37,356 bases of DNA from Chloroflexota bacterium (GTDB lineage Bacteria; Chloroflexota; Dehalococcoidia; SHYB01): the NCBI GenBank assembly GCA_016875535.1, contig VGPF01000004.1, positions 65,588-102,943 on the forward strand, written 5' to 3'. The notes beneath the pieces were generated by a model that saw only the letters and a list, made by a program, of their open reading frames with translations, was not told where the DNA came from and made no database searches. Shown one piece after another: positions 30,312 to 35,314 of this stretch; the stretch's first letter is position 1, and each line of letters begins with the position of its first letter. The position numbers were made by a program, and so were the translations under genes.

Positions 30312-32576
30312 TTAGGAGTCCTTGTTCGTGACTTTGATCTTGTTCGAGAAATCAATGGGCAGCACGGAGCCCTCCATCTTCGGGATGCGCTTCCACTTGC
30401 CCGTCTTCGCGATGCTTACGCGCGTCGCCGCCCAGGCCAGCGAGCCGCTCTGCTTCTCTTCCCGCGGGTCCAGGACGGCGTACACGTTCGCGCCGTAGCC
30501 CTCCGCCCAGCGCCCGAAGGCCTTGTGGCCCCGGCCCACGGGGATCGCCAGCACGTCCGGCGGCGCGGCCGGGTTCGGGTAGACCAGCGCCTGGATGGCC
30601 CCCGCCGGCGATTCGATGCGGACCACATCGCCTTCGCGCAGGTCCATGTCGCGCGCCGTCTTGGAGTTCACTTCAACCCAGGTCTCCCACGTCGCCGTCG
30701 TCATCGGGTCGGGCGTCGCCTGGAGCCACGGCAGGTGCGCAAGCCGCCCATCGCCGATGCCCGCCGTCTGGAACGGCAGGAGGACGAAGGGGTAGCGTCC
30801 GGCGTCTCCGGCGAATTCCGGTTCCGGGTTGGTCAGGTTCAGGCCGTTCACAAAGGGCACCGGCAGCGCGCGGGCGTTCGTATCCCACCAGCCGCCCTGC
30901 TGGAGCAGCTTGCCCCAGAACTCTTCAAAGGTCGCGGCCTTGATGTTTCCCCGGCCGAACTGGTGCAGCTTCTGGGCCTGCTGGCGGAGCGCATCGCGCA
31001 TGCTCGTCCAGGGCAGGTCCTTCTCGATCTTCAGCTCTTGCGCCAGCGTCAGCAGGATATCGCCGAAGCCGCGCGTATCGCGGAAGGGCCGCACCACCGG
31101 CTGCTGGAAGGTGACTGCCTCATAGCCGGGCCCGGGGTTCATGGGCGCATCCGCCCAGTCTTCCAGGGGAAGGCTCGTCGGCAGCACCCAATCGGCCCAG
31201 TAGGTCGTATCGTCAAGGAAGCTCGAAAGGCTGATCACCGTAGGCACGTTCGCTAGCGCATCCGCAAAGCCCAGCGAAGCGGGCAGGCTGTGCACCGCGT
31301 TCGCGTTGCGGATCACCAGCGCCTTCACCTTCCCCTGCTTCATGCCTTCGATGATCTTCTTCCACTCCGCCAGGGAGGTGCTTGTCCCGGCGGCGTAGGC
31401 TGTGCGGTCAGCCGCCGCCGTCCCATCGCCGATGGGCGGCGCAGGGTTGAAGTTCACGCCGCCCGGCTTGTTCACAGTCCCAACCAGGTGGTTGAGGCTG
31501 TAGATGGCGGTCAGATTGAACACGCCGTTCGTGTGCGCGCCCGCCGCGCCGCCGCCGATGGCTATGGCCGGCTGGTTCTCCGGCGCTACGAAGGCCTTCG
31601 CCAGCTCTTCGATGTGCTTGGCGGAAACGCCCGTCGCCTCCGCCACCTTCTCGGGGGCGTAGGCCTCCAGCGCAGCCGCGCCACGGCCGCCAGTGAGGGC
31701 CCGCGCTGCGGCTGCGTCGCCGAGGCCCGACTTGATGATCACATAGGCGATGCTCAGAGCCAGCTTGCCCTCGGAGCCGGGCTTCACATAGACCCACTCG
31801 TCGGCGCCGGCTGCCGTCGGCGAGAGGCGCGTGTCCGCCTGCACCAGCGTCCCGCGCTTGCGGGCCCCCTGGCGGAACTCGCCGTAGCCCCGCGAATGGC
31901 GGACCTGGGAGATCCAGCCGCCTAAGAAATCCGAACTGAACGAAAGGATATAGTTGCTGCGCCCAAGATCGAAATCAGGCAGCAGGTCCTGGTCGAACGT
32001 CTGCTTGATAGCCGCCTTCAGCGCGGCCTCTTCCATCGGCTCGAAGGTCGCGTGGGTGGCGTTCATCGCCTTCGCGAAGCGCTTCGCCACCATGCCCTGG
32101 CTGCCGTTCAGCGCCCCGGTCACGATGAGGAGACTGCCCGCCGCCGCGCCCTTCATCTCGTTCAGCTTAGGCGTCACCGCCGCCAGCGCCTCATCCCACG
32201 TCGTTTCCGCGAAGGCGCCGCTGCCCCGGGCGCCCGTCGCCTTCATGGGCCTGCGAACGCGGTCGGGATGGTAGACCGCCTGGACGCCCGCCTGGCCCCG
32301 GGCGCATAGCTTGCCGCCGCTGAGCGGATGGACGGGGTTGCCCTCCACCTTCTTCGCCCGGCCTTCGATGACCCGCACGATGACGCCGCACCCGCTGCCG
32401 CACTGGCTGCAGGAGGTGGCGTACCAGTTGTCTATCCCATTGACCAAGTCTTCCGGGAGCCTGGAGGGGCTCTGCACCAGGAACTCGCGGACGTTCGGGC
32501 GGCAGGCGGACAGGATGGCGGCCCCTGCGGCCGTCCCTCCCGCCAGCTTCAGAAATTCTTTGCGCGTGAAAGCCAT
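30312..32576 (-). CDS. actB1: ACIII molybdopterin-fold subunit (ActB1, separate gene)
   Basis: The protein has 754 residues of the molybdopterin oxidoreductase fold. The N-terminus (TRKEFLKLAGGTAAGAA, then ILSAC) looks like a Tat signal with Arg-Lys instead of Arg-Arg, plus a lipobox ending at Cys25. A cluster motif C56-x2-C59-x3-C63-x27-C91 (SCSQCGSGCG and KLCARGQ) could hold a [4Fe-4S] centre. Further motifs include GGAAGAHTNGVFNLTAIYSL and LVIRNANAVHSLPASLGFA. The C-terminal MopB-like beta domain ends near IDFSNKIKVTNKDS. In characterised ACIII this part lacks a molybdenum cofactor; whether this one binds it is unknown. In the operon it precedes the separate Fe-S gene. Confidence 0.88.
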   Translation of the reverse strand: MAFTRKEFLKLAGGTAAGAAILSACRPNVREFLVQSPSRLPEDLVNGIDNWYATSCSQCGSGCGVIVRVIEGRAKKVEGNPVHPLSGGKLCARGQAGVQAVYHPDRVRRPMKATGARGSGAFAETTWDEALAAVTPKLNEMKGAAAGSLLIVTGALNGSQGMVAKRFAKAMNATHATFEPMEEAALKAAIKQTFDQDLLPDFDLGRSNYILSFSSDFLGGWISQVRHSRGYGEFRQGARKRGTLVQADTRLSPTAAGADEWVYVKPGSEGKLALSIAYVIIKSGLGDAAAARALTGGRGAAALEAYAPEKVAEATGVSAKHIEELAKAFVAPENQPAIAIGGGAAGAHTNGVFNLTAIYSLNHLVGTVNKPGGVNFNPAPPIGDGTAAADRTAYAAGTSTSLAEWKKIIEGMKQGKVKALVIRNANAVHSLPASLGFADALANVPTVISLSSFLDDTTYWADWVLPTSLPLEDWADAPMNPGPGYEAVTFQQPVVRPFRDTRGFGDILLTLAQELKIEKDLPWTSMRDALRQQAQKLHQFGRGNIKAATFEEFWGKLLQQGGWWDTNARALPVPFVNGLNLTNPEPEFAGDAGRYPFVLLPFQTAGIGDGRLAHLPWLQATPDPMTTATWETWVEVNSKTARDMDLREGDVVRIESPAGAIQALVYPNPAAPPDVLAIPVGRGHKAFGRWAEGYGANVYAVLDPREEKQSGSLAWAATRVSIAKTGKWKRIPKMEGSVLPIDFSNKIKVTNKDS

Positions 32577-32590
32577 TGCTCAGTTGCCTA

Positions 32591-33235
32591 TTAGTAGTGA
32601 CACGTCGCGCAGTCTGACGGCGGCGCGCGACGTTGACCGCTCGTGATCGCCTCTTTAATCGCCGCCTCAGCCTCAGGCGTCAGATAGTTGAAATAGCCGC
32701 CTCTGTGGCAGTCCACGCAGTCCCGCATCTTCAGGTTGCGGACCTGCTCCGCCACCTGCATCTTTCCGACATCGCCGTGGCAGATGGAGCAGACCTGGGA
32801 CGGCTGCACCTTGTTCTCTTTGGAGAAGAAGGCCACGTGCGCCTCGTGCAGGAACTGGACATGATCGGGCAGTCTATGGACCCGGCCCCAGTTCAACGGC
32901 TCGCCGGATTCGTTAACGGAAAGCAGCTTGGTGATTTCCGGCGAAGTCTTCAGCACAACCTGGTGACAGAAGACGCAGAGCTGGACGGAGGGGATCGTCG
33001 CGGCCTCGCCCTTCAGAGCCTCCCGGTGGCAGTACTGGCAATCAATTTCGGCGGCGATGTGGAGGTCGTGCCGGAACTTGATCGGCTGGCTGGCCTTCAC
33101 TTGCGCCGGGCCGAAGGGCGTGCTCCACCATGCCTTCAGGATGCCGACCGTAACGATAAGCCCGCCTATGCCGATGACCAGTCCGATGACTGGGACCAGC
33201 ACTTTGACCGCGAGCGGGGCTTTAGGCAACGACAT
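32591..33235 (-). CDS. actA: ACIII pentaheme cytochrome c subunit
   Basis: The protein has 214 residues with one N-terminal transmembrane anchor (about 10-34, LVIGIGGLIVTVGILKAWW) and five C-x-x-C-H heme motifs: CQYCH (66), CVFCH (87), CSICH (149), CVDCH (173) and CATCH (209). Surrounding motifs (PIKFRHDLHIAAEIDCQYCH, then HVQFLHEAH, supplying distal His ligands) match ActA/QrcA multiheme cytochromes. It acts on the periplasmic side and accepts electrons from the Fe-S subunit. Second gene of the operon, 44 bases after the first small membrane protein gene. No good Shine-Dalgarno is seen before the ATG. Confidence 0.93.
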   Translation of the reverse strand: MSLPKAPLAVKVLVPVIGLVIGIGGLIVTVGILKAWWSTPFGPAQVKASQPIKFRHDLHIAAEIDCQYCHREALKGEAATIPSVQLCVFCHQVVLKTSPEITKLLSVNESGEPLNWGRVHRLPDHVQFLHEAHVAFFSKENKVQPSQVCSICHGDVGKMQVAEQVRNLKMRDCVDCHRGGYFNYLTPEAEAAIKEAITSGQRRAPPSDCATCHY

Positions 33236-33719: not shown

Positions 33720-33819
33720 AGCCGCCCGAATCCCGGCCCCCGCTCCGGCATCCAACAAAGCGCCTCTGCTACACTGAAGATGCCCCCGGTTCATGGGGAA
33801 ATACAGAGAAGGAGCGGCG

Positions 33820-34872
33820 ATGGCCTCCCTTGAGCCAATCAGGCTCACCACCCTGACCAAGTGCGGCGGCTGAGCTGCCAAGTACGGTCCGGGCGACCTG
33901 CATCATCTCCTAAAGGACCTCCCCCGCCTCGCCGATAGGCGCCTGCTCGTCGGCATTGAAACGGGGGACGATTCGGCGGTGTACCAGCTCACGAAGAATC
34001 TCGCGCTGGTGCAGACGGTGGACTTTTTCCCTCCGATCGTGGACGACCCCTTCACCTACGGCGCCATCGCGGCCGCCAACTCCCTGAGCGATGTCTACGC
34101 CATGGGCGGCAAACCCATCACCGCCATGAACATCGTCGGCTTCCCGGCGGATAAGCCCAAGGACATTCTGAAAGGGGTCCTTCGCGGCGGCGCGCAGAAA
34201 GCCAAAGAGGCTGGCGTCCCCGTCGTCGGCGGCCATACCATAGATGATGCCGAACCCAAGTACGGCATGGCCGTCACCGGCCTCGTTCGCCCCGGAAAAC
34301 AGTGGACGAACGCAGGCGCAAAACCCGGCGACCTCCTCATCCTCACCAAGGCCATCGGCACCGGCGTCATCACCACCGCCGCCAAGGCCGGCAAGGCGGC
34401 CCCTGCCGCCATCGAAGCGGCCATCGCCTCCATGCTCGCCCTCAACAAGGCCGCAAGCGAGGCCGGGCTGAGCGTCACCCCCAACGCCTGCACGGACGTC
34501 ACCGGCTTCTCCCTTCTCGGCCACCTCCACGGCATGCTCAATGCAAGCAACGTCTCCGCCACAATCGGCCTCAGCAGTGTCCCGCTCCTGCAGGATGCCT
34601 GGCGCTTGGGCGTGGAGCAGGAAATCTCCCCGGGCGGCATGGGCCGCAACAAGGCCTACTACGATCACGCCGTCGCCTGGCATCCTGACGTTCCGCCCAA
34701 AGCCTTCCGCCTCCTCTTCGATCCGCAGACCTCCGGCGGCCTCCTCTTTGCCGTGTCAGAGAAGAAGGCCCCGCTCCTGCTCAAAGCCCTCAAGGCCAAG
34801 CGCGTCAACATCGCCGCCGTCATCGGCCACGTGACGCCGGGGAACAGAGGGCGCATCGTCGTCGAGCCCTAG
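33820..34872 (+). CDS. selD: Selenophosphate synthetase, itself a selenoprotein (in-frame UGA)
   Basis: The frame from ATG 33820 (GGAG five bases upstream) encodes 350 residues if TGA at 33871-33873 is read as selenocysteine. Residue 18 lies in LTKCGG-Sec-AAKYGPGDL, the catalytic segment in which SelD proteins have either Cys or Sec followed three residues later by the essential Lys. Downstream motifs are ETGDDSAVYQL (ATP/Mg2+ Asp residues), DPFTYGAIAAANSLSDVYAM and GGKPI. Later come VVGGHTIDDAEPKYGMAVTG, NACTDVTGFSLLGHLHGM and DPQTSGGLL. It makes selenophosphate from selenide and ATP. A plain stop-to-stop gene call would begin only at 33979 and lose the active site. The genome must therefore encode SelB, SelC and SelA, none of which lie in this window. 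Confidence 0.95.
33886..33898 (+). promoter_or_regulatory. Candidate bacterial SECIS hairpin in selD mRNA
   Basis: GGTC (33886-33889) pairs with GACC (33895-33898) around CGGGC, beginning 12 bases after the UGA codon. A G in the first two loop positions and this distance to the UGA fit known bacterial SECIS elements, which recruit SelB. The stem is short, so the boundaries are uncertain. Confidence 0.55.
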
Positions 34873-34894: not shown

Positions 34895-35314
34895 ATGGCA
34901 GACCTTACGCTCTCGAAAAAACTGGCCGAGGAAATCATCGCCCACGCCAAGGCGGAGGCGCCCAACGAATGCTGCGGCGTCCTGGCCGGCACGGGTGCTG
35001 CTGTTCGCGCTGCCTACCGCGCCAAGAACACTGAACGAAGCCCTGTGAAATACAACTTTGATGGTCCGGAGCTCCTTCGGATAGAGGATGAAGCGGCCAA
35101 AGCCGGGCATGACGTCCTCGGCTTCTATCACTCCCACACCTTCAGTGAAGCCTACCCCTCCCCCACAGACGTCAAGCTCTCCTCGCCGTGGGGCTACATC
35201 TATATGATCGTCTCCCTCCGCAACCCACAGCAGCCCGCTATCCGCATCTTCCGCATAGACCGCGCCCTGCCTGAAGGCGCTCAGATTCAGGAACTCTCTC
35301 TTTCCATCGTCTAG
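34895..35314 (+). CDS. JAMM/Mov34-type metalloprotease (Mec-like)
   Basis: The protein has 139 residues. The JAMM zinc-protease motif is complete: Glu24 in PNECCGVLAG, then the H-x-H of FYHSHTFSEAYPSPTD with the Ser and Asp ten residues on. This class of small stand-alone JAMM proteins includes Mec, which releases cysteine from the sulfur carrier CysO, and proteases for ubiquitin-like carriers. It starts 22 bases after selD and is probably in its transcript, so a link to sulfur/selenium carrier chemistry is attractive but only inferred. No CysO/ThiS-like carrier gene is in the window. No signal peptide, so cytoplasmic. Confidence 0.85.
   Translation: MADLTLSKKLAEEIIAHAKAEAPNECCGVLAGTGAAVRAAYRAKNTERSPVKYNFDGPELLRIEDEAAKAGHDVLGFYHSHTFSEAYPSPTDVKLSSPWGYIYMIVSLRNPQQPAIRIFRIDRALPEGAQIQELSLSIV

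Follow-up and report, generated by a model that had tools for sequence, protein, structure and literature searches.

A selenocysteine-type selD gene in a Dehalococcoidia genome, and the UGSC-family genes that accompany it in the class

Among prokaryotic selenoprotein families, the selenocysteine (Sec)-containing form of selenide, water dikinase (SelD) ranks second in how widely it is distributed, and in bacteria it is one of the top two (PMC1794560, PMC13188914). Sec-containing bacterial SelD is represented by the model TIGR00476, and curated SelD models exist at NCBI. The preliminary description of the present locus implied that a Sec-containing SelD would be a novelty, which was overstated; a selD gene that encodes Sec is itself an ordinary and already known kind in bacteria. 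A second described system is the UGSC-family selenoprotein (PF24696 / NF041046). As for whole selenoproteomes, the published bacterial maximum given in PMC13188914 is 63 selenoprotein genes, from one metagenome-assembled genome (MAG), and the Olavius Delta 1 symbiont comes next with 57.

The selD gene discussed here lies in a window of 37,356 nucleotides, that is, the whole stretch of DNA analysed, which is part of contig C4 of genome G000 (assembly of 2.5 Mb in 86 contigs, 98.4% complete and 1.2% contaminated). The features of the locus are as follows.

33810..33814, + strand: Shine-Dalgarno-like AGGAG, 5 nt 5' of ATG 33820, read directly from the sequence
33820..34872, + strand: selD, 350 codons, with UGA as predicted Sec at residue 18 and a TAG stop at 34870-34872
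33871..33873, + strand: in-frame TGA where the catalytic Cys or Sec is encoded; Ala-Ala-Lys comes next, with the conserved Lys as residue 21
33882..33901, + strand: candidate SECIS hairpin of the bacterial type, with the sequence GUA(c)GGUC-CGGGC-GACCUGC, a stem of 7 bp and a single bulged C
33979..34872, + strand: truncated 297-aa ORF with a GTG start, the product expected from a code-11 gene caller, lacking the active site

The frame from ATG 33820 contains a single TGA and is otherwise open as far as the TAG, and the start with its ribosome site, the TGA and the ordinary start at 33979 are all found where the preliminary description had placed them. The 17 residues before the TGA are MASLEPIRLTTLTKCGG, and both flanks of this codon align with SelD across bacteria. 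The motif around it is KCGG-U-AAK in the N-terminal loop, that is, UGA occupies the catalytic Cys/Sec position, as had been proposed, and the conserved Lys follows three residues later (U18-A-A-K21). The readthrough product matches TIGR00476 over its whole length with 376.8 bits (cut-off 125, 7.6e-113) and NF002098 with 327.6 bits (cut-off 299), so that a full-length match above the curated cut-off is obtained for SelD equivalog models, and the PDB SelD structures 2yye (8.8e-69) and 3u0o (7.2e-67) are also matched over the whole length. The window selD and Sec-containing bacterial SelD are alike in whole-length match, in the position of Sec/Cys in the loop and in the G-[UC]-x-x-K loop itself, and no substantive difference between them was seen. 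The first start codon 3' of the TGA is GTG 33979, and the ORF opening there lacks the catalytic loop, which bears out the earlier expectation that automated annotation would miss the active site; annotation of selD must read through the TGA, otherwise the active site is lost.

With regard to the neighbours of selD in the window, a 139-aa JAB/MPN-domain protein is encoded at 34895-35314 (+), 22 nt 3' of selD on the same strand. Upstream and on the opposite strand are a molybdopterin oxidoreductase of 754 aa (30312-32576, -) and, adjoining it, a cytochrome c7/MtrC-like cytochrome c (32591-33235, -), both without TGA, and this pair is likely to form a respiratory complex.

The nearest named relatives are Chloroflexota, SAR202 and Dehalococcoidia MAGs, and the organism and its class are placed near Dehalococcoidia/Chloroflexota on that basis. 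Among 110 relatives, namely, related selD loci whose N-terminus could be aligned, codon 18 is UGA in 100; the remaining 10 encode Cys there, and no other residue occurs. All four family genomes examined have a selD with one TGA (identities 100, 80, 63 and 61%). In the class-wide sample (E<=1e-50), selD is present in 168 of 245 genomes, and among the class selD matches listed most contain exactly one TGA and a minority none. Because residues on either side of the TGA align with SelD and UGA is kept at the same codon in the nearest relatives, the arrangement is not due to chance. One other possibility to be considered is that selD is a pseudogene, or gives a truncated protein from GTG 33979, and that UGA is an ordinary stop; a 297-aa ORF does begin at 33979, but its product would be without the catalytic loop, the 53 codons upstream of it are conserved as protein, UGA holds the same position within the genus, the family and the class as well as between phyla, which is the opposite of the ordinary stop without upstream conservation that had been named as evidence against a selenoprotein, and the Sec machinery is present in G000. 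This possibility is considered very improbable. The favoured reading is that the product of selD is a selenide, water dikinase with Sec, in which UGA codon 18 would be decoded by SelB and Sec-tRNA(UCA), and its probability is put at about 0.97. The sequence establishes the frame, the place of the UGA and its conservation, as well as the machinery and the further UGA genes; Sec insertion, catalysis and a SECIS role of the hairpin are predicted.

A bacterial SECIS hairpin has a G close to where its apical loop begins, some 16-37 nt beyond the UGA. The preliminary description had called for a SECIS prediction, and a hairpin was indeed found at 33882-33901, of which the apical loop CGGGC (33890-33894) starts 16 nt past the UGA; its statistical support, however, is weak, since the 63 nt that begin at the UGA, when folded and compared with shuffled sequences, gave z = +0.5, which is not significant, and 10 of 100 synonymous recodings were as stable as the native candidate. 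In addition, seven of ten Cys-type SelDs also score under a permissive hairpin rule, and no RNA family of Rfam matched within the window. The selD of a genus-mate has a closely similar sequence with a hairpin at the same place, several other relatives share this short placement and others have a hairpin at a longer distance, so that the short distance is one of two placements among relatives. A SECIS-like hairpin directly downstream may be a further feature that the window selD has in common with Sec-containing bacterial SelD, which is described in PMC1794560, PMC4561486 and PMC13188914. The hairpin is therefore compatible with a SECIS, being statistically weak in the single sequence.

The preliminary description further supposed that the lineage has an active selenocysteine system, and the genes for it were located in the same genome.

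C31:18269-20119: selB, 334 bits, above the cut-off, single full-length copy in G000
C2:149548-150879: selA, 542 bits
C2:15177-15270: tRNA-Sec, 66 bits, anticodon TCA (UCA), single copy in G000

The Sec-decoding set of selA, selB and tRNA-Sec is thus complete in the G000 assembly. selA and tRNA-Sec are on the same contig, 134 kb apart, and all three are off the selD contig, so their co-occurrence with selD assumes correct binning of the 86-contig assembly. These genes also bear on the proposal that the whole genome reads UGA as some other amino acid, Trp or Gly for instance, and not as Sec. Such a proposal would account for the readthrough of the in-frame UGA in selD, but this codon is aligned with Cys or Sec alone and never with Trp or Gly, and G000 possesses one tRNA-Sec(UCA), SelA and SelB. 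Moreover, in the class-mate G031 UGA terminates 140 of 461 long ORFs and is therefore a working stop there, with no reassignment. The reassignment proposal is regarded as even less credible than a truncated selD.

Under the Sec reading, selenocysteine would be inserted at UGA codon 18 by SelB with Sec-tRNA(UCA), a step in which the hairpin just 3' of the codon probably assists, and Sec18 and Lys21 in the flexible N-terminal loop would take part in the formation of selenophosphate from selenide and ATP. SelA would then charge tRNA-Sec using selenophosphate, and since SelA needs selenophosphate for this step, the synthesis of SelD would require SelD's own product. The 2-selenouridine synthase YbbB/MnmH was sought in G000 and not found; consequently, of the two routes compared, Sec and 2-selenouridine, selenophosphate appears to feed Sec only. 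Formate dehydrogenase was considered as the main Sec user in G000 and rejected: homologues were found, none of them carrying TGA. A scan for other single-TGA frames in the window and in the neighbourhoods of selA, selB and tRNA-Sec gave chance-like ORFs only.

The main other Sec consumers found in G000 would be UGSC-family selenoproteins. There are seven matches to UGSC (PF24696) above the cut-off, and six of them contain one TGA, the codon that supplies the U in UGSC or UGNC; other UGA-containing genes, which had been thought probable, are therefore present. The seven loci in G000 are listed below.

C16:32556: UGSC (L146), separate partner gene about 0.9 kb away
C9:1186: UGSC (L147), separate partner gene
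C21:20195: UGSC (L148), separate partner gene
C6:8251: UGSC (L149), separate partner gene
C27:11053: UGSC (L150), fused to the partner
C10:38304: UGSC (L151), separate partner gene; no UGA, CWGT at the place of the motif
C11:9860: UGSC (L152), fused to the partner

The UGSC family is expanded in a part of the class. Other family members of G000 have 6-8 UGSC copies. The other UGA genes of G000 and its class-mates share UGxC at the motif of the UGSC family; the copy number is 7 in G000, 46 matches in G032 and at least 131 with UGA in G031. In G031 (loci L192-L223 and L228-L247), 139 UGSC domains were counted directly in 857 kb, including 131 distinct full-length domains with an in-frame UGA, 2 partial ones with UGA and 6 without UGA; these counts are lower bounds, the 857 kb being about 17% of the genome in stretches chosen for UGSC hits. 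Nearly all of the UGAs are at UG[S/G/A/T/N]C, and all 150 of the 208 candidates in G031 that were scored matched UGSC. Strain mixing as the source of the G031 count is unlikely, because no pair exceeds 95% identity, the median nearest-neighbour identity is 69% and many copies stand in series on one contig. G031 and G032 each have one full-length selB above the cut-off, and the selD of G031 carries TGA. The UGA-containing genes of this one family in G031 are thus at least twice as many as the 63 selenoprotein genes of the largest bacterial set on record.

The partner is a domain of about 350 residues with the consensus GWxDGLPxIPPT ("GWTDGLPxxPPT"). Many UGSC genes are fusions of 550-650 residues in which the partner makes up the C-terminal ~350 residues, the two fusions in G000 lying in open frames 576 and 590 codons long. 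Elsewhere a single-domain UGSC gene has the partner next to it as a gene of its own. All seven UGSC loci in G000 have a same-strand partner copy (2 fused, 4 adjacent and the one at about 0.9 kb, which is just past the pairing limit), and in the G031 stretches so do 134 of 139 UGSC domains, 89 fused and 45 adjacent on the same strand (for example, L194 and L196). No Pfam or NCBIfam model matched the partner domain and no PDB chain was matched by profile; PDB searches with the UGSC domain and with its partner gave nothing credible. Genes for several solute-binding proteins of family 5 are among the neighbours in two UGSC clusters scanned, as are those for a family III CoA-transferase, a CMD-domain protein and a thiolase-like one. 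Neither the copy number nor the constant pairing or fusion with the ~350-aa partner appears in the passages on UGSC in PMC2398784, PMC13188914 and PMC9402790, and no report of UGSC expansion was retrieved from open-licence PMC text for UGSC with Dehalococcoidia or for SAR202 with selenocysteine.

As a hypothesis drawn from these gene arrangements, UGSC and its partner may be the two subunits of a redox enzyme that depends on Sec and has been multiplied to serve various imported substrates. It is quite probable that genomes of this class hold the largest bacterial selenoproteomes so far, built of UGSC proteins that are nearly all paired or fused with the partner and, in the clusters examined, situated near genes for family-5 solute-binding proteins and CoA-transferase/thiolase genes, and that these represent a two-component selenoenzyme for many imported substrates. 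The Sec-type selD is the mark of a lineage in which selenocysteine is in active use, and the near-universal pairing of UGSC with its partner, together with the genomic setting, gives a concrete handle on the role of the UGSC protein.
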